From positions 2,170,001 to 2,234,000 of the forward strand of contig NZ_CP007174.1 in the NCBI RefSeq assembly GCF_000730285.1: a stretch of DNA of 64,000 nt, given 5' to 3'. Source of the stretch: Candidatus Nitrososphaera evergladensis SR1. GTDB lineage: Archaea > Thermoproteota > Nitrososphaeria > Nitrososphaerales > Nitrososphaeraceae. Of this stretch, positions 3,200 through 62,269 are shown one piece after another. The notes under the pieces were generated by a model, which made no database searches, was not told the DNA's origin, and saw only the letters and a list, made by a program, of their open reading frames with translations. The translations under genes were made by a program, and so were the position numbers. Every line of letters starts with the position of its first letter. The first letter of the stretch is position 1.

Positions 3200-3319
3200 A
3201 TCTATGCCATAGATATGGCGTTTGTACGATATAAGGCCATTGACGATTATCATTTAAACTTGCAAACTATTATCAGCAAATACTTTATACTTGTAAAACC
3301 ATACCCGCATGATGACCAT
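3200..3319. promoter_or_regulatory. Divergent promoter region glnA / lrp
   Basis: The 120-base gap holds a TATA-like box on each strand: CTTATAT on the minus strand at 3229-3235 for glnA, and CTTTATAC at 3283-3290 on the plus strand for the Lrp gene. Both predict short leaders (about 7-10 bases). The short shared region makes co-regulation by the Lrp product likely, though I could not define an operator. Confidence 0.6.
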
Positions 3320-54189: not shown

Positions 54190-54509
54190 GTGGAGGCAGG
54201 GAGGGTCGGGGTGCTAGCCGTGCCCCACACTGGAAATCGGCTTTATGCCAGGATCAGTAACCGCTGGGTAAATCCGCTGGGAGGGGGTACCCGCTTGCCT
54301 TGCGGAAATGAAATCACGCCGTGTCGGATGGTTATGAGCAGCGATCTGCGCGAAGGCGCGGCGTCGACTGCGCATCGTCGAAATGGGTGAGGTCCGGGAG
54401 GGAGCAACCCTAAGGCGGCGTAGCCATGCTAGCACGTCTACGTGGTGGATCTCGCAGGGCTTGAGATGGGGCCTTTTTCCAACGGTGGTACCGGTGGGCT
54501 GCCTCCACT
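54190..54509 (+). ncRNA. Signal recognition particle RNA (7S/SRP RNA)
   Basis: About 320 bases without a protein gene. TGGAGGCAG (54191-54199) pairs with CTGCCTCCA (54499-54507), forming the closing helix 1 of archaeal SRP RNA. The highly conserved helix 8 region is present near 54391-54420 as GAGGTCCGGGAGGGAGCAAC and CCTAAGG, with the asymmetrical loop that binds SRP54. A GCGCGAAGGCGC hairpin lies where helix 6 would bind SRP19. The Alu-like 5' part contains GGTGCTAGCCGTGCCCCACA. A TATAATATAG box (54160-54169) precedes it by about 25 bases. Confidence 0.88.
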
Positions 54510-54633: not shown

Positions 54634-55080
54634 TCACTTTTTGGCTAGTGCCAGTATTCCTGCTATGATTCCAAGTATTGGACCGATGAAGAAGCCACTC
54701 ATGCTGACAAGACCTACAATAGACGCAACTAGAATTCCGATTCCCCAGACGCCCGCACTTGCTGGCTTTCTATGAATGGCCAATCCTCCTGCTACAGATA
54801 CTGCACCTGCACCTACAGATATTGCAGACAAGGTCCCGACAGCCCACCACATGAATCCTGCACCGTCTGGCACCATCATAGTCATGCCCCATCCTCCGCT
54901 TCCACCCATCATCATTTGGCCGCCCAGTCCAGATGGCATCATCATCCCCATCATCTGCGTGTTCCATAGGCTAAGCATTGAAAGGGCAAATATTCCTCCC
55001 GCAAGCATGAGTGCGCCTCCTATGACTGCCATTATCGCGGAAGGAGCTATTCCTCCGTTGGTTTTTGAGACACTTTCCAA
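54634..55080 (-). CDS. Met-rich membrane protein of the copper regulon
   Basis: 148 residues, about four membrane helices (PSAIMAVIGGALMLAGGIFA; FMWWAVGTLSAISVGAGAVS; GVWGIGILVASIVGLVSMSG; IGPILGIIAGILAL). The extracellular-looking loop WNTQMMGMMMPSGLGGQMMM is very rich in Met, which suits Cu+ binding. Its promoter has the palindrome TTTACAATTGTAAA at 55143 and a TATA-like GCTTATCT at 55128-55135 (minus strand). Start is TTG 55080, with AAGGAGGAG nine bases before it, a clear ribosome-binding site. Function (copper storage or transport) is inferred. Confidence 0.7.
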   Translation of the reverse strand: MESVSKTNGGIAPSAIMAVIGGALMLAGGIFALSMLSLWNTQMMGMMMPSGLGGQMMMGGSGGWGMTMMVPDGAGFMWWAVGTLSAISVGAGAVSVAGGLAIHRKPASAGVWGIGILVASIVGLVSMSGFFIGPILGIIAGILALAKK

Positions 55081-55142
55081 TTGTTATCGCTCCTCCTTCT
55101 GCACACCTTATTGTTGCAGAAAATGATAGATAAGCGCAGCAA

Positions 55143-55156
55143 TTTACAATTGTAAA
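55143..55156. promoter_or_regulatory. Copper-regulon palindrome, site 1 (bidirectional)
   Basis: TTTACAATTGTAAA, a perfect 14-bp palindrome. It lies about eight bases from the TATA-like box on each side: TTGATATAAC at 55165 for the YHS gene and GCTTATCT at 55128-55135 for the Met-rich gene. Confidence 0.8.
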
Positions 55157-55195
55157 GTGCTGTATTGATATAACACGGGTTAGAGCTGAAAGTAC

Positions 55196-55387
55196 ATGCT
55201 CGGATTACTTCAAAAGCATTGCCCGGTATGCGGAATGGACGTTGACAAGAATACAGCAATGAAAAGATTCGGGAAATACTTTTGTTCAGAGGAGCACGCC
55301 GGGCAATATGCCGAAATGAAAATGGCAAGGGATATAGAAAGAAAGGATTATGAAGATAGGGGCTCCGGCGGCGGAGGATGCTGTTAG
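55196..55387 (+). CDS. YHS/TRASH-type metal-binding protein, 63 residues
   Basis: A small protein with the YHS/TRASH pattern: HCPVCGMDVDKNTAMKRFGK, then YFCSEEHAGQYAEMK, and a C-terminal GSGGGGCC tail with two further Cys. TRASH-type knuckles bind Cu+ or other soft metals with Cys. The promoter carries the shared palindrome. It likely buffers or delivers copper in the cytoplasm. ATG 55196 is 20-30 bases after the TATA box. Confidence 0.8.
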   Translation: MLGLLQKHCPVCGMDVDKNTAMKRFGKYFCSEEHAGQYAEMKMARDIERKDYEDRGSGGGGCC

Positions 55388-55418
55388 CTGCATAATATCA
55401 GGTGAATGAGAGAAAAAA

Positions 55419-55934
55419 ATGACAAAAGGCAGCAAGCCAGATGCAAGAACACAAAAGAGCGGCATCAAGATAATCATCATAGCTGCCATAGCAGTTATAG
55501 CTGCAGGAATTACTGCCGCTGCAGCTAGTGGCGCGATTCAACCGCCAAATGCACCAATGGCAAGTACCAATAACGACAAGCCGATGGTCATGCACATTCA
55601 TCCTAAACTCTCGCTATTAGTTGGCGGTCAAGAAACACAGGTTCCACAAAATATAGGGATAGACAAGACTTTATGGAATGACCATTCGCTTGACTCTTTT
55701 GGTATGCAGGGAATGGCCCCGCTACACACGCATGACACAAGCGGCACAATTCACGTCGAATCCAATGAGCAGAGGGACTACACATTGGGCCAACTTTTGG
55801 ACATCTGGGGCGTGATGTCGGACAGCAAGTATGCAGGCAAGGAAGTAAAAGTGATCGCAGACGGCAGTCCTGTCCCCGACTTTAAGAATCTGGTTCTAAA
55901 GGACGGGCAGGAAATCAGGCTAGAGGTATCATGA
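55419..55934 (+). CDS. Membrane-anchored His-containing protein
   Basis: 171 residues: N-terminal membrane helix IKIIIIAAIAVIAAGITAAA, then an exported domain with MVMHIHPKLSLLVGGQETQV, MQGMAPLHTHDTSGTIHVES and DYTLGQLLDIWGVMSDSKYAG. The H-x-H and H-T-H-D-x2-G-x-I-H pattern is found in small exported proteins of bacteria and archaea, and may bind metal. It comes 31 bases after the YHS gene, without its own clear promoter, and probably shares that copper-regulated transcript. Confidence 0.7.
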   Translation: MTKGSKPDARTQKSGIKIIIIAAIAVIAAGITAAAASGAIQPPNAPMASTNNDKPMVMHIHPKLSLLVGGQETQVPQNIGIDKTLWNDHSLDSFGMQGMAPLHTHDTSGTIHVESNEQRDYTLGQLLDIWGVMSDSKYAGKEVKVIADGSPVPDFKNLVLKDGQEIRLEVS

Positions 55935-56035
55935 GGACTGCAGCAAGGGCTAAGAAAGACACAAGACCGATGAATGAAGCAAGTCCAGAGCAAGCTAGGT
56001 TTTAATGTCAAAAAATCCCTTTTTTGATTAGATAA

Positions 56036-56809
56036 ATGTCTATCAAGTGTGCAGAATGCCAGTGTGACCCGCAGGATTGCATGAAGGTGGAACATGCTCA
56101 ACGCTGTGGCACCTGCACCAAAGAGGCATGTTGTTGTATTGCCATTCATAACAGTGCGAAAAAGTATGCGTCAAAGTTGACGCTGACAAAAATGAATGAC
56201 GATTGCTGCGCTTCGGGTGTTTGTAAAAATGACTCTATACCGCAAAAAACAACCTCGCAATCCGGCTTACTTCAGTTTCTTAGAAATGCAAAAGCACTGT
56301 ACGCTGCTGCACTTGGCATTGAAATTCTCTGCATCGTGGCTACTGAAATTGGCGAAAACACGGGCTTGTACCTCTTTGGCTTCAATCAGATAGGGATACC
56401 TATAGCATATGCAATGGGCTACGCCCTTGCAGGATTTACTACGTTTGCCACAATACTTGGCAGATACAATTACGGCTCAAATGACAGGATTGACGGCTGC
56501 TGCTCTGTTTTGGAGCAAGGAGCAGGAACAGGCTTTACCTCAAACCTAAAGACGACTTTCAAAAACCTTGCAATTGGCATGACTAAACTGCCTCAGCTGC
56601 ACCGCCAACCAAACAAAAAGTACATGTTGAAAACAAGTGCATACATTCTAGTAACTGCTGAAAGTGCTTGCATCCTGACAGCAGAGACAATCGATTTAGT
56701 ATTCTATCAATACTCGTTGCTACTGTCAATTCCTTTGGCTCTCCTTGCCGGTGCCTTCACGGTGGTCGCACCAGAAGCCTACCGAAAGACAAAACGAAAG
56801 GCTAACTGA
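56036..56809 (+). CDS. Cys-rich N-terminus, four-helix membrane protein
   Basis: 257 residues. The first 63 include twelve Cys: CAECQCDPQDC, CGTCTKEACCC, and DDCCASGVC. Four membrane helices follow: ALYAAALGIEILCIVATEIG, IPIAYAMGYALAGFTTFATI, SAYILVTAESACILTAETID and YSLLLSIPLALLAGAFTVVA. The Cys clusters suit soft metal binding. Family unknown. ATG 56036 follows GGTTTTAATG (55998-56007), a TATA-like box at the right distance. No palindrome of the copper type is upstream, so its membership of the regulon is by position only. Confidence 0.65.
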   Translation: MSIKCAECQCDPQDCMKVEHAQRCGTCTKEACCCIAIHNSAKKYASKLTLTKMNDDCCASGVCKNDSIPQKTTSQSGLLQFLRNAKALYAAALGIEILCIVATEIGENTGLYLFGFNQIGIPIAYAMGYALAGFTTFATILGRYNYGSNDRIDGCCSVLEQGAGTGFTSNLKTTFKNLAIGMTKLPQLHRQPNKKYMLKTSAYILVTAESACILTAETIDLVFYQYSLLLSIPLALLAGAFTVVAPEAYRKTKRKAN

Positions 56810-56993
56810 CCTATTGTATATTCTTCATCATCCCAATTCAACACATCGCGACTCGGTCTCAACAGAGACGGAGTTTCACCCGAATTTTCACCAGTGCCAT
56901 AAATGATCGCAACCCTCATAGCAATCCAAGCAGCACCACATAGCAGATGCAGAGCCTTGCAAAAGAAAGTGTCATCGGAAGGATTGCGCCGAC

Positions 56994-57254
56994 TTACTTT
57001 TTCTTTCTTCCCTTGATCTTCGTGTAGACAATATAACCAACAAGACCTACGGCTGCCGCGGCAGCCAGCACTCTGATTATATCACGAATGTCAAATGGAG
57101 ATGAGGCAGGAATATTATTACTGCTGCTTTGCGGTTGTTCTTCTTCCGTCTGGGCAGGCGCAGGTTGCGGGACATCCAGAACCAGCTTGACAGGATACAG
57201 CCTTGAAACTATCAAGCCGTCATCGTCCTTCTCAGGAGTCTGAACCTTGACCAT
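56994..57254 (-). CDS. C-terminal fragment of the beta-propeller protein with membrane anchor (split by frameshift)
   Basis: 86 residues from ATG 57254: VKVQTPEKDDDGLIVSRLYP and KLVLDVPQPAPAQTEEEQPQ, then the helix VLAAAAAVGLVGYIVYTKIK and RKKK, a standard membrane anchor. The frame remains open before the ATG as SGQNNSKPGNYTAM, which continues an Ig-like strand (pGnYta pattern). It thus looks like the missing end of the 57212-58669 gene rather than an independent protein. Whether the shift is real or a sequencing error cannot be told here. Confidence 0.6.
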   Translation of the reverse strand: MVKVQTPEKDDDGLIVSRLYPVKLVLDVPQPAPAQTEEEQPQSSSNNIPASSPFDIRDIIRVLAAAAAVGLVGYIVYTKIKGRKKK

Positions 57255-58669
57255 CGCGGTATAATTGCCGGGCTTGGAGTTATTCTGGCCTGAAGCTGAA
57301 TGTTAGATTCGGCAGAAGAAGATGATGCATTTTCTTGCAGATTAACCCTCGGCGGATTTGCGTGATAGGTCACCCCTGCGAGTCCTGACTCGGTCATTCC
57401 GGTTAGCCCAACTTCGACCTGCGAAAGGGACAAGGAACCAAGACTATTATCACTACCATTTGCAATGGCAGATTTTTTTATCAAAACATCCAAGCTTGCA
57501 GCCCCGCTTTTGGTCAGCGTGATAGACTGCTGCGGCTGAAGGATTTGCGCATCAAAAGGCACCTGCGCCGAGGCATCAAGATATGCCACCTTGTTTGACG
57601 CCCATTCAGTAAACCACACTTTCTTTCCGTCATGAGAAACAGCAGCAAATACCGCTGCAGAAAGTGGCCCGGTGGGAATTTCGTACTCGGTCATAACTCC
57701 CTGCGAATCTATCCTTGCTATCCTGTTTCCGCCATGCTCGGGAAAATAGACGTTGCCTGATTTATCATCTGAAACGATCTGGCTTGGCAGAGTGGCGGGA
57801 AATGATCCAGAAGGAGATGTCCAGTACGACGTATAGTTCTGCAGCGTCGCGTCAGATACTATGACCCGGCTTGAGCCGTGATCAGAGAGATACAATTTGC
57901 CGTTATTTGCTACCGCGATTCCAAACGGAGAAAAGGAATCAGGCTTTGGCAATGACAGAATGGGCATACCAGCTGCACTGCTTGACGCAAGCAGCCAGGG
58001 CTCTATCCGCATGACGCTTCTTGAATAGGACAGGCTGACCCAGAGAGCCCCGCTATCGTCAAAATCAAGAAAGGTTGGGCCGCTCTGCTCTGGCAAAGAG
58101 TATTCAGCCGTTATCTTTGCAGAAGCCGTATCGACTTTGCCTATTTTATTGCCCAAGATTTCTGCAAACCAGACGCTCCCGCCATCAGGCGACAGGGCAA
58201 TGCCCATCGGTCCCGATTTCTCTGTCGGTATAGGTATGAGTTGGATTTGCCCGTTTGCCAGCCTGCCTATCGAATTGGTTCTGGCGTCCGTAAACCACAG
58301 GGCACCTTCTCTGTCAAATACGAGCTGGCCAGCGGCCAGCTTTATTACAGGATTGTCGACAACTGTCTCGCCTTGCACGTCGTAGCGAGTAAATTTGTTG
58401 CCCGAGGGGTCAAAGCTGAAAACTGCGCTTGTGGCATTGGTTGAGAAATAGAACCATGGCATTCCCCGTGCATCGGTTGTTATCCCTCCGAGCCCGCGGT
58501 CTTCTTTTAGGTCGTTAATTTGAAATTCTTTTATGAATTTGCTTTCCTTGGTGTACGTGACATCATCATTTCCAGTGGTAACTGTCTGGGCATTAACAAC
58601 TTGGAACGGCAAGACAGCCAAGAGCAATACCGCTACCGCTAATGCTGGTGCAACCACGTATCTCCACAT
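57212..58669 (-). CDS. Vgb/NHL-like beta-propeller protein, apparently frameshifted near its end
   Basis: 485 residues in this frame. Signal peptide VAPALAVAVLLLAVLPFQVV, then a propeller of repeats with streptogramin lyase (Vgb) pattern: GREGALWFTDARTNSIGRLA-like strands (e.g. LVFDREGALWFTDARTNSIG; VWFAEILGNKIGKVD; VYFPEHGGNRIARID; VWFTEWASNKVAYLD). An Ig-like domain follows, then the reading degenerates into ITPSPAIIPRWSRFRLLRRT. The proper continuation lies in the frame of 56994-57254; the shift is around 57270-57305. ATG 58669 is preferred to TTG 58684, as an ATTAAAG box (58696-58702) predicts a leaderless start there. A copper-type palindrome is upstream. Confidence 0.75.
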   Translation of the reverse strand: MWRYVVAPALAVAVLLLAVLPFQVVNAQTVTTGNDDVTYTKESKFIKEFQINDLKEDRGLGGITTDARGMPWFYFSTNATSAVFSFDPSGNKFTRYDVQGETVVDNPVIKLAAGQLVFDREGALWFTDARTNSIGRLANGQIQLIPIPTEKSGPMGIALSPDGGSVWFAEILGNKIGKVDTASAKITAEYSLPEQSGPTFLDFDDSGALWVSLSYSRSVMRIEPWLLASSSAAGMPILSLPKPDSFSPFGIAVANNGKLYLSDHGSSRVIVSDATLQNYTSYWTSPSGSFPATLPSQIVSDDKSGNVYFPEHGGNRIARIDSQGVMTEYEIPTGPLSAAVFAAVSHDGKKVWFTEWASNKVAYLDASAQVPFDAQILQPQQSITLTKSGAASLDVLIKKSAIANGSDNSLGSLSLSQVEVGLTGMTESGLAGVTYHANPPRVNLQENASSSSAESNIQLQARITPSPAIIPRWSRFRLLRRTMTA

Positions 58670-58710
58670 ACGGACTAGAATCAAAAATAGCCCATACTTT
58701 AATCCTAATC

Positions 58711-58724
58711 TTTACAGTGGTAAA
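58711..58724. promoter_or_regulatory. Copper-regulon palindrome, site 4 (variant)
   Basis: TTTACAGTGGTAAA, with central mismatches. On the minus strand it is TTTACCACTGTAAAG, and a GGATTAAAG box follows at the same distance as in the other sites, serving the propeller gene. Confidence 0.65.
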
Positions 58725-58754
58725 TTGCCACCCTTAACGCATTGTCATTCCTCA

Positions 58755-59333
58755 TCAATCGTCATCATCGTCATGATGGCCGTGGTGATGATGGTGATGT
58801 TCGTGCGTCCAGTGTCCAAAGGCTCCGTCCATCATTCTTCCAAGACTCGAATTGTCTATCGGCTTTGCAGGCGAGGTGTAAAGCACGCTTCCATTTCCTG
58901 CATCAACGATTACCTTGTGAACAGTCCCGTCGTTCATGTTTGCCACCGTGATGGTGTATACCAAGTAGTCGTGCACTACGCCGAGGCGGCCTGTGACTGC
59001 CGTCCCGTTGCCCTGACTTCCTGCCACCCTGGAAGCGTCGGTGAGAGTCACGCGGAGATGGTCACTTAGGAATGTTTTCTCTGCTTCTTTGATGTTTATC
59101 GTGCCTACTATCTTGTCCATTGTTGCCGCCTGAGTACTGTTAGTATTGTTGTTCGCTTGAGGAATTGCTCCTTTCTGCGTACTATTATTGGCATTGTTGG
59201 TGTTATTGTTTCCTAGAGGACTGGTCGTGTTCTGCGCGGAGGCAAATGACGTGGCCGCAACCAATGAGGCAACCAGGCCCGCGGCCAAAAGAGCGGGAAT
59301 TAGGAATTTCTTGTTTCCTTTTAGGCTTGACAT
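58755..59333 (-). CDS. Secreted PepSY-like protein with His/Asp tail
   Basis: 192 residues: signal peptide FLIPALLAAGLVASLVAATS, an Asn/Thr-rich linker with many N-x-T glycosylation sites, then a PepSY-like domain (VGTINIKEAEKTFLSDHLRV; HDYLVYTITVANMNDGTVHK; VIVDAGNGSVLYTSP). The tail HWTHEHHHHHHGHHDDDDD is an obvious metal-binding stretch. It precedes the propeller gene by 85 bases on the same strand and is divergent to copA. Likely an extracellular copper or divalent metal buffer (inference). A minus-strand AGTATTAAG box lies near 59357-59365. Confidence 0.75.
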   Translation of the reverse strand: MSSLKGNKKFLIPALLAAGLVASLVAATSFASAQNTTSPLGNNNTNNANNSTQKGAIPQANNNTNSTQAATMDKIVGTINIKEAEKTFLSDHLRVTLTDASRVAGSQGNGTAVTGRLGVVHDYLVYTITVANMNDGTVHKVIVDAGNGSVLYTSPAKPIDNSSLGRMMDGAFGHWTHEHHHHHHGHHDDDDD

Positions 59334-59558
59334 CGATTCATTATCGCTCTCATGATTCTTAATACTTGAGGAGACACAACTGATTATCTTGCTTACCTAG
59401 AATAGCAATAGCAGAATCCTGAAGAAGCAATCTGCGGGTGTGGAACAGAAAACCAAGCATCGAACAGTCGCGAAAGCGAAAACTTTCAGGGCGCCGTAAC
59501 AGAGTTCTGCAGACTGATGAAGCAACACCATAAAGGCGGCATCAGGTGAAACCTGTTT

Positions 59559-59572
59559 TTTACAGTTGTAAA
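59559..59572 (+). promoter_or_regulatory. Copper-regulon palindrome, site 2 (copA promoter)
   Basis: TTTACAGTTGTAAA followed by GTCCTGCT and the TATA box CCTATATACG (59581-59590). One base departs from perfect symmetry. The copA ATG is 29 bases after the box. Confidence 0.8.
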
Positions 59573-59618
59573 GTCCTGCTCCTATATACGAGAAAGCCCA
59601 GAGGTACAGCAGAACAAT

Positions 59619-61808
59619 ATGGCAAAAGATCCAGTCTGCGGAATGTTTGTTGAAGAAAAGCCCGACGCCATACGCCACACGGCGGACGGCAGGGAATACT
59701 TTTTCTGCAGCACGCAGTGCCTCAATGAATTCACTGCGCCAGAAAAAGAGCTGAGAAAGCTAAAGATAGTCACAGGGGTTAGCATCGCCCTCACCATACC
59801 GATAACGATACTGACCTACCTGATGCTGCTTCCAAAGGAGGTGAACAGCTACGTCCTCCTTGCGCTGGCAGCGCCTGTGCAGTTCTGGGCCGGATGGCGG
59901 TTCTACAAGGGGACGTGGGACGCTATCAAGGCAAGGGCGTCAAACATGGATACGCTGATCGCTGTGGGAACCACGGCCGCCTTTCTGTACAGCGCCGTCG
60001 TGACTGTAGCGCCTGGCCTGTTCCCGTTTGAAGGCGTGTACTTTGAGACGGCCGCCATAATCATCACCCTGATACTCATAGGCAGGCTGCTTGAAACAAG
60101 GACAAAAGAAAAGGCGTCAAACGCGGTGAGGAAACTTCTCGACCTCCAGCCGAGGATGGCACGAGTGATCAGAGACGGCGGAAGGGAGGAAGAAGTGCCG
60201 GTAGAGCAGGTGCAGGAAGGCGACTTGTTCCTTGTCAGGCCGGGCGAGAGGATACCCACCGACGGGACGGTGGCAGAAGGCTCTTCCTCTGTTGACGAGT
60301 CGGCCGTCACGGGCGAGTCGATACCGGTCGACAAGTCCGCCGGCTCTGAAGTCATCGGCGCCACGATAAACAAAAGCGGCCTGCTCAAGGCAAGGGCAAC
60401 CAAAGTCGGCCAGGACACGGTCCTGTCGCAGATAATAGCGCTTGTCCAGGAAGCAAGGACGGGCAAGGCGCAGATGCAAAAGATGGCAGACCAAGTTGCA
60501 AAATACTTTGTCCCGGCCGTCATCGCGGTGGCAATCGCGTCAGCGCTGGCATGGTATTTCGTAGGAGGCATCGGGCTCACGTTCTCGCTGCTTGCATTTG
60601 TGTCGGTCATAATCATAGCCTGCCCGTGCGCTCTTGGAATTGCAACACCGGCCGCGTTGATGATGGGAGCAGGCAAGGGGGCAGAAAACGGCATACTGTT
60701 CAAGGGAGAAGAGTACCTGGAGATGGCAAGAAAAGTCAGGACGGCGGTGTTTGACAAGACGGGCACCCTGACAAAGGGCCAGCCCGAAGCCACCGATGTC
60801 ATAGCGTTGTCGGAAAAGATGGGCGGGCAGCAGGAATTGCTCAGGCTTGCCGCAATAGCAGAGTCAGGTTCCGAGCACCCGTTAGGGCAGGCGATAGTGA
60901 GAAAGGCAAAGGAACAAGGGCTTGTTATTGCAAGCCCGGAATCGTTTGAAGCGGTGTCGGGCCACGGGTTGAAAGCCGGATATGCAGGCCACTCTATAAT
61001 GATTGGAAACAGAAAGATGATGGCCGACAACGGAATAGCTGTCCCGGACAAAGTCAATGCCACGATGAGCAGGCTTGAGACAGAAGGCAAGACAGCAACG
61101 CTTGTCTCAGTTGACGGCAGTCTTGCAGGCATTGTGGCAATGGCCGACACCGTAAAGGAGCACGCGCAAGAAGCAATCGACTCGCTGAAGCAGATGGGCA
61201 TAAGAGTCGTCATGCTAACGGGCGACAATGAAAGGACGGCAAGGGCAATAGCATCCAGCCTGGGCATTGACAGGGTAATCGCGCAGGTGCTACCCCAGCA
61301 GAAGGAGCGAGTGATTACAGAGCTCAAGTCGGAAGGCAGAGGCGCGGTGGCAATGGTAGGCGACGGCATCAACGACGCACCGGCGCTTGCCCGTGCCGAC
61401 CTTGGCATCGCAATAGGCTCCGGGACTGACGTTGCAAAAGAAACGGGTGGAATCATACTGATAAAAAATGACCTGCGCGACGTCGTGACTGCATTTGAAC
61501 TTGGAAGGAAGACGGTGTCAAAGATAAAGCAGAACCTGTTCTGGGCCTTTGCGTACAACACGGGTCTGATACCCATCGCGGCAGGGGCGCTCGTGCCAGC
61601 ATTTGGGGCGCAGATGTACGAATGGCTCCCGCTGCTTGCGGGAGGGGCGATGGCCATGAGCTCGGTTTCCGTCGTGGGCAATTCGCTGCTACTTGGCAGG
61701 TACAGGCCGAGGTTTGCGACAGCAGAAGGCAAGCCAGAGAAGGAGCGGATATACGGCGAGAAGGAGCCAAAGCAGGTCTACTACTACAACAACGCAGAGG
61801 CTACATAG
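59619..61808 (+). CDS. copA: Copper-transporting P-type ATPase CopA with YHS domain
   Basis: PIB-1 ATPases pump Cu+ out of the cytoplasm using ATP. Order in 729 residues: an N-terminal YHS domain (DPVCGMFVEE...YFFCSTQCLNEF, residues 4-42) in place of the usual HMA domain; membrane helices; the actuator loop VDESAVTGESIPVD; the transport CPC in IIACPCALGIATPAAL; DKTGTLTKGQP; SGSEHPLGQAI; and MVGDGINDAPALA. The late helices carry AYNTGLIPIA and GGAMAMSSVSVVGNS, the Y-N and M-x2-S-S residues diagnostic of Cu+ specificity. It ends with a short Tyr/Asn-rich tail overlapping the HMA chaperone gene by eight bases. The operator is site 2. Confidence 0.95.
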   Translation: MAKDPVCGMFVEEKPDAIRHTADGREYFFCSTQCLNEFTAPEKELRKLKIVTGVSIALTIPITILTYLMLLPKEVNSYVLLALAAPVQFWAGWRFYKGTWDAIKARASNMDTLIAVGTTAAFLYSAVVTVAPGLFPFEGVYFETAAIIITLILIGRLLETRTKEKASNAVRKLLDLQPRMARVIRDGGREEEVPVEQVQEGDLFLVRPGERIPTDGTVAEGSSSVDESAVTGESIPVDKSAGSEVIGATINKSGLLKARATKVGQDTVLSQIIALVQEARTGKAQMQKMADQVAKYFVPAVIAVAIASALAWYFVGGIGLTFSLLAFVSVIIIACPCALGIATPAALMMGAGKGAENGILFKGEEYLEMARKVRTAVFDKTGTLTKGQPEATDVIALSEKMGGQQELLRLAAIAESGSEHPLGQAIVRKAKEQGLVIASPESFEAVSGHGLKAGYAGHSIMIGNRKMMADNGIAVPDKVNATMSRLETEGKTATLVSVDGSLAGIVAMADTVKEHAQEAIDSLKQMGIRVVMLTGDNERTARAIASSLGIDRVIAQVLPQQKERVITELKSEGRGAVAMVGDGINDAPALARADLGIAIGSGTDVAKETGGIILIKNDLRDVVTAFELGRKTVSKIKQNLFWAFAYNTGLIPIAAGALVPAFGAQMYEWLPLLAGGAMAMSSVSVVGNSLLLGRYRPRFATAEGKPEKERIYGEKEPKQVYYYNNAEAT

Positions 61809-62031
61809 CTTCTGTCCTTCTGACGAACTGGTAGCCAGAGCGCTCCAGCCTCTGTTTTATTTCCTCTTTTGTGATTAATGCAGGATCGTATTCTACTATG
61901 ACAGAATCAGTCATAAAATCTAGGTCTATCTTTTTTATCGCCTGCTCACCCTTCAACTGCTTTTCTACAATGGGCTTGCACGTAGTGCAGTACATGCCTA
62001 CTACTTTGAAGAGCGCCTTTTGAACTGCCAT
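61801..62031 (-). CDS. HMA-domain copper chaperone
   Basis: 76 residues from ATG 62031: a heavy-metal-associated domain with VVGMYCTTCKPIVEKQLKG (C-x2-C metal site) and a VEYDPALITKEEIKQRLERSGY C-terminal half. It resembles CopZ, delivering Cu+ to CopA, which itself lacks an HMA domain, so this protein may be its partner. The frame opens at ATG 62049, but the TATA-like CTATTATC (62056-62063, minus strand) predicts transcription to begin near 62033. Palindrome site 3 lies just upstream. Confidence 0.9.
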   Translation of the reverse strand: MAVQKALFKVVGMYCTTCKPIVEKQLKGEQAIKKIDLDFMTDSVIVEYDPALITKEEIKQRLERSGYQFVRRTEAM

Positions 62032-62071
62032 TTGTACTAGATAGATCATATCTTGGATAATAGGTTGCAGC

Positions 62072-62085
62072 CTTACAATTGTAAA
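62072..62085. promoter_or_regulatory. Copper-regulon palindrome, site 3 (bidirectional)
   Basis: CTTACAATTGTAAA; the core TTACAATTGTAA is perfect. TATA-like boxes lie on both sides about eight to nine bases off: CTATTATC for the HMA gene, TCTTTATCT (62092-62100) for the YHS gene. Confidence 0.8.
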
Positions 62086-62125
62086 GTGCCGTCTTTATCT
62101 ACGATGCAATGCCTATTAATGGCAC

Positions 62126-62269
62126 ATGTTCAAAGACCCTGTTTGCAAAATGATGGTTGACGAGAGGACTGCAAAGCACGTATCAGAGGCGGGAGGCAGA
62201 AAAGTCTACCTGTGCTCTGCAGCATGCAAGTCACAGTTTGACGCCAACCCATCAAAGTTCGGATATTAA
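62126..62269 (+). CDS. 47-residue YHS-domain protein
   Basis: A short frame ATG 62126 to TAA 62267 encodes FKDPVCKMMVDERTAKHVSE, AGGRKVYLCSAACKSQFDAN and PSKFGY. The D-P-V-C-x-M...Y-L-C-S-x2-C-x3-F pattern is a complete YHS domain, closely like the N-terminus of CopA in this window. TATA TCTTTATCT precedes the ATG by about 28 bases (leaderless), beside palindrome site 3. Probably a free copper-binding partner in the same regulon. Confidence 0.85.
   Translation: MFKDPVCKMMVDERTAKHVSEAGGRKVYLCSAACKSQFDANPSKFGY

Follow-up and report, generated by a model that had tools for sequence, protein, structure and literature searches.

Copper-type genes and palindromic sites in the window

The window analysed here is a 64,000-nucleotide (nt) stretch of the genome of Candidatus Nitrososphaera evergladensis SR1, in which a cluster of copper-type genes shares a palindrome that we predict to be the operator of a copper regulon; site coordinates are window positions unless marked as genome. 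An earlier sequence-only reading of this DNA had placed the palindrome at 55143, 59559, 62072 and 58711, and all four sites were recovered at these places, each of them intergenic. Its count of four sites serving six promoters holds for three strict sites and five promoters, the site at 58711 being weaker and graded as probable only. The features of the cluster are as follows.

54634..55080, minus strand: 148-amino-acid (aa) Met-rich membrane protein, with a longer leader and GGAGGAG preceding its TTG start
55126..55133, minus strand: TATA-like box TTATCTAT on the other side of palindrome 1, at +9 spacing, serving the Met-rich membrane protein
55143..55156, no strand: palindrome 1, TTTACAATTGTAAA, bidirectional putative operator, a strict match in the genome-wide count
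55166..55173, plus strand: TATA-like box TGATATAA, 9 bp past palindrome 1, serving the 63-aa YHS-like gene, its position fitting the 62-promoter profile described below
55196..55387, plus strand: 63-aa Cys-rich YHS/metallothionein-like protein, start 39 bp from palindrome 1
57212..58684, minus strand: secreted beta-propeller protein of the Vgb_lyase/NHL type (Pfam PF24684, E 2e-42)
58711..58724, minus strand: site 4, TTTACAGTGGTAAA, probable degenerate site with one mismatch
59559..59572, plus strand: palindrome 2, TTTACAGTTGTAAA, putative operator of copA, strict match
59582..59589, plus strand: TATA-like box CTATATAC, 9 bp past palindrome 2
59619..61808, plus strand: CopA, P1B-type ATPase with an N-terminal YHS domain (Pfam E1-E2_ATPase 8e-59, YHS 1.5e-8)
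61801..62049, minus strand: HMA-domain copper chaperone, CopZ-like (Pfam HMA 4e-13)
62056..62062, minus strand: TATA-like box TATTATC at +9 spacing, serving copZ from palindrome 3
62072..62085, no strand: palindrome 3, CTTACAATTGTAAA, bidirectional putative operator of copZ and the 47-aa YHS gene
62095..62101, plus strand: TATA-like box TTATCTA, 9 bp past palindrome 3
62126..62269, plus strand: 47-aa YHS/TRASH protein (Pfam YHS 4.5e-9), start 40 bp from palindrome 3

Pfam searches bore out the CopA, HMA and YHS assignments of the sequence-only reading and placed its propeller protein in the Vgb_lyase/NHL kind, while the 63-aa protein, with weak scores, can be called only YHS/metallothionein-like. 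The strict pattern YTTACANNTGTAAR was counted in the window against 100 dinucleotide shuffles, and in genomes against a reversed-pattern control. Three copies were present in the window and none in the shuffles. All three continue as GT(G/C)CYG, as previously noted, and the TATA-like box described as following after 8 to 9 bases starts 9 bases on, on both sides of palindromes 1 and 3 and on one side of palindrome 2. The five promoters at these sites follow the layout seen in relatives.

In site 4, one half-site is broken and a poor box, TAAAGTAT, stands at +9. The distance from this site to the ATG at 58669 is 41 bp, which is the canonical spacing, and only about 0.007 one-mismatch sites would be expected by chance in the cluster. 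A more distant Vgb-like gene in genome G026 has TTTACAAGTGTAAA 50 bp upstream. Because the nearest propeller gene of a relative (locus L189) has no such site in front of it, we regard TTTACAGTGGTAAA as a probable, not a certain, member of the operator set.

Conservation of the palindrome and its promoter geometry

The 2,954,373-bp genome contains seven copies of YTTACANNTGTAAR and none of the reversed pattern, and the presence of three of the seven inside a 6,980-bp stretch has a binomial probability of about 5e-7. Five of the seven precede copper-type genes: in addition to the three in the window, the copy at genome 1810140 lies 38 bp before the start of a second CopA with two HMA domains, and a DUF4396 membrane protein that contains His and Met (PF14342, E 2e-33) follows the one at genome 1989312. 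The palindrome does not occur at similar density before unrelated genes genome-wide; only the remaining two strict copies, at genome 541818 and 1145711, lie at genes unrelated to copper. The exact palindrome at genome 1145711, TTTACAGCTGTAAA, overlaps the start of a small ribbon-helix-helix-like gene with no Pfam match (L001 1498-1743) and lacks the copper promoter layout; it is perhaps the own operator of that small protein.

Among 61 relatives from the same order, 130 strict palindromes were found, compared with 50 matches to the reversed control, and within the window's genus the figures were 42 and 6. The genes that recur behind the palindrome encode CopA (of YHS or HMA type), CopZ, the 47-aa YHS protein, DUF4396 proteins and CopT, the last of which is considered below. 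Palindrome 3 is kept in two relatives, G014 and G015; a homologue of the Met-rich protein is also found behind the CopA-site palindrome in G014 and is syntenic in G015. The spacing is similarly constrained, with 61 of 77 classified target starts lying 34 to 51 bp from the palindrome (median 39) and the start codons of 63 copper genes in 31 related genomes, all with this one arrangement, being mostly 37 to 42 bp away. When 62 copper-gene promoters were aligned, the profile revealed an extended palindrome, CTTTACAWTTGTAAAG, flanked by C/T before and G after, and a peak of TATA information at +9 to +15, which agrees with the boxes in the window. Where the start is near 38 bp, the TATA box stands some 22 to 29 bp ahead of the start codon, a distance that would fit leaderless transcripts. 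Together, the copper-gene targets in the genome and a fixed spacing kept in dozens of relatives support the copper regulon that the sequence-only reading had proposed.

A strict palindrome was also observed 38 bp before the start of MFS drug-transporter-like genes in two genera (L090 1501 in G013; L160 1721 in G022). These genes are possible further regulon members.

A candidate regulator, CopT, encoded in trans

The observation that no regulator gene lies in the cluster is correct, and a candidate is encoded in trans at about 1.44 Mb. Searching the genome itself for the TRASH family gave one strong match outside the cluster, a 147-aa protein here called CopT (G000:C1:1439787-1440227, minus strand), whose gene adjoins a CbiD-like gene. 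Its N-terminus contains an AsnC/Lrp-type helix-turn-helix (HTH) domain (HTH_AsnC PF13404, E 8e-14), and its first 66 to 88 or so residues match Lrp/AsnC proteins in solved-structure profiles. At the C-terminus is a TRASH domain (PF08394, 3.6e-7, above the cut-off), in which cysteines C97, C100, C121, C122 and C125 are invariant in the alignment. AsnC_trans_reg (PF01037, the RAM domain) was not matched in the 147-aa protein and was matched in relatives of 204 to 209 aa. Judged by its domains, the 147-aa protein is of the archaeal CopT/CopR kind, minus the ligand-binding/oligomerisation (RAM) domain of Lrp. A structure model of a CopT relative reached a predicted local distance difference test score of 69.5, a moderate value that supports the HTH and TRASH region only.

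Short CopT was found in Nitrososphaera, Nitrosocosmicus, Nitrosotenuis, Nitrosarchaeum and Nitrosopumilus. Its gene is linked to copA in many relatives and remote from copA in the window's own genome. In G015, taken as Nitrososphaera viennensis, the HTH-plus-TRASH CopT is encoded at 358500-358934, and a 47-aa YHS gene lies beside CopZ at L150 7175-7643. By position, the N. viennensis gene published as "CopT" beside CopZ (NVIE_012920) is probably this 47-aa YHS protein, which has no DNA-binding domain.

Association of the palindrome with copT

Each of the 15 short copT genes found elsewhere in the window's family has a strict palindrome 33 to 45 bp upstream, and in most other ammonia-oxidising archaea the distance is 31 to 45 bp. 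Of 36 named copT loci whose upstream DNA could be used, about 30 carry the palindrome, including those of Nitrosopumilus, Nitrosarchaeum, Nitrosotenuis and Nitrosocosmicus, and many of these palindromes are shared with a divergent copA. In three members of the window's genus (G002, G006 and G010), copT is directly behind a palindrome-preceded copA. Across 121 genomes of the Nitrosopumilaceae family, those with copT contain a mean of 4.4 palindromes compared with 1.5 in those without (p 6e-8); the association persists inside genera (permutation p 5e-5), and the reversed control motif displayed no difference between the two groups. The palindrome is also present at long CopT forms in some relatives of the order (G041, G043 and G049). 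It was not found upstream of long CopT from family f2 or from more distant members of the phylum; therefore, the operator is not universal for CopT.

The palindromes are also clustered at copT in genome G153 (1,645,259 bp), which matches Nitrosopumilus maritimus SCM1 in size. Here, 17 of 19 strict palindromes fall within 23 kb around copT (1029732-1052919; L283, L284), in a block of genes for a multicopper oxidase, a plastocyanin-like protein, two DsbA-like thioredoxins, a DsbD-type membrane protein, a DegP-like protease, a kelch propeller and a Met-rich protein. None of the G153 palindromes yielded a CopA-type target. From its gene content, the block looks like a marine envelope copper/redox regulon.

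Comparison with known copper regulators

The closest counterpart is Pyrococcus furiosus CopR (PF0739). It activates copA in vitro, and its motif, TTNNCAWWWTGNNAA, immediately precedes the B recognition element (BRE) (PMC7830388). Both proteins combine an N-terminal Lrp-type HTH with a C-terminal TRASH domain, both systems place a palindrome of TTnnCA half-sites directly upstream of the BRE, with copA as a known or predicted target, and both have redox proteins of thioredoxin or peroxiredoxin type among their known or predicted targets. P. furiosus CopR is described as an Lrp-like octamer with a His-rich tail, encoded divergently to copA (PMC7830388), whereas the CopT described here has no RAM domain, its putative operator TTTACAWTTGTAAA is one base shorter than TTNNCAWWWTGNNAA, and in the window's genome copT is an orphan gene. 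The CopT/CopR protein of Saccharolobus solfataricus (SSO2652, copTMA) likewise consists of HTH and TRASH and is reported to activate a Cu ATPase and a TRASH chaperone (cited in PMC7830388); there, copT sits with copM and copA, in contrast to the remote, RAM-less form here. Another copper-related promoter motif has been proposed in the same genus, TTCSGSMTTTGWACYANT of copper-limited N. viennensis (PMC7785015), and it differs from the palindrome in both sequence and genes (CopC/D, MCO4).

Proposed mechanism and alternatives

Operator sequence, TATA spacing, target set, CopT domains, and the linkage and co-occurrence of palindrome and copT were all computed directly. On this basis, the CTTTACAWTTGTAAAG palindrome is very probably the operator of a copper regulon under the control of the trans-encoded, RAM-less CopT. 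A CopT dimer would read both TTTACA half-sites, the TRASH cysteines would bind Cu(I), and the complex, positioned directly upstream of BRE/TATA, would alter recruitment of TFB/TBP. The most likely outcome would be activation of export (CopA), cytosolic copper handling (CopZ and the YHS proteins) and envelope copper proteins. By analogy, CopT bound at this position would probably act as an activator, since P. furiosus CopR has the same layout and activates copA in vitro.

Several observations weigh against this proposal, in whole or in part. In the window's own genus, copT itself lacks a palindrome, and the operator is 14 bp long, one base less than the motif of P. furiosus (15 bp). CopA2 of N. 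viennensis (NVIE_012900), palindrome-controlled as judged by synteny, was reported to be up under copper limitation, with CopA1 and CopZ unchanged (PMC7785015). This rise fits poorly with simple activation by copper excess, and both the sign and the trigger of CopT control may differ from that scheme. Reports on CopR also differ between species, with an activator in P. furiosus and Saccharolobus and a repressor in Thermococcus onnurineus (PMC7830388), so that CopT may act in either sense. The position that the sequence-only reading held to suit an activator, just upstream of BRE/TATA, matches that of P. furiosus CopR.

An alternative with a real, if lesser, claim keeps the operator and CopT but lets CopT either repress until copper lifts the block or work as a dual regulator. 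It draws on the T. onnurineus report and on P. furiosus CopR, described as repressing copR while activating copA, and the divergent copT/copA pairs sharing one palindrome would suit autoregulation. Set against it, some 9 bp separate the end of the palindrome from TATA, so that BRE/TATA stays free, a typical activator position, and the equal position in P. furiosus gives activation. It is unlikely that copT is merely a target and that another protein, such as an additional Lrp/AsnC or ArsR regulator, binds the palindrome. Genomes do hold several further Lrp/AsnC genes and copT looks like a target in many of them, but palindrome number tracks copT presence within genera, no other Lrp/AsnC gene among the recovered loci has a strict palindrome upstream, and the half-sites match those of P. 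furiosus CopR.

The sequence-only reading had likened the palindrome to bacterial CopY operators, and the core is indeed equal: TACAnnTGTA is that of the classic CopY/CopR cop box, which also shares copper-export targets (PMC7253601). A repressor of bacterial origin, of CopY type (penicillinase-repressor fold) or CsoR type, with the match reflecting homology of the two systems, is nevertheless very improbable. The flanks are reversed, as the 16-mer CopY consensus RNYKACANNYGTMRNY requires R before and Y after (PMC7253601), whereas here C/T precedes and G follows; the promoter is archaeal, with the site upstream of BRE/TATA; and the palindrome is linked to copT in many genera. Both CopY (PF03965) and CsoR (PF02583) were rejected as regulators, neither family having a match in the window's genome or its 17 genus relatives. 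The resemblance looks superficial, and we read it as convergence. A chance origin or a non-copper role, for which the two strict genome copies away from copper genes could be cited, has a negligible probability given the empty shuffles, the clustering, and the conservation of spacing and targets over many genera; for the three strict window sites, chance is ruled out by the same evidence.

Neighbouring features of the window

Three further observations concern the surroundings. Downstream of the YHS-like gene and on the same strand, positions 56036-56809 encode a membrane protein of 257 aa that has a stretch rich in Cys at its N-terminus (CAECQCDPQDC...CCC...CC) and belongs to no Pfam family. 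An archaeal signal recognition particle RNA gene (RF01857, 109 bits) adjoins the cluster at 54194-54504. At 3253-3297, two near-palindromes, TTTAAACTTGCAAA and TTTATACTTGTAAA, are spaced 31 bp from each other, directly ahead of an Lrp/AsnC gene; these are possibly that regulator's own operators, with no copper link.

Significance for ammonia-oxidising archaea

Ammonia-oxidising archaea are major nitrifiers, and both their ammonia monooxygenase and their electron transport depend on copper. According to a transcriptome study of 2020, Cop gene regulation "remains an open question" (PMC7785015), and our literature searches, mostly of open-access papers, returned no description of the motif or of a thaumarchaeal CopT regulon. 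This class of regulator was already known, as was the notion of a CopR regulon; what is new is the operator, a regulator that lacks RAM, its occurrence in ammonia oxidisers of both soil and sea, and the set of marine targets. The result is a concrete operator, a candidate regulator and a list of targets, all open to testing in strains that can be cultured. More broadly, RAM-less CopT may be the general copper regulator of ammonia-oxidising archaea, a proposal whose chances we judge to be evenly balanced. Having lost the effector/oligomerisation domain of Lrp, it would sense copper through TRASH only and use one conserved operator for efflux in soil lineages and for the envelope block (multicopper oxidase, plastocyanin-like protein, DsbA, DsbD and DegP) in marine lineages. 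If this is true, a general RAM-less CopT would tie copper status to the maturation of the cuproproteins needed for ammonia oxidation.

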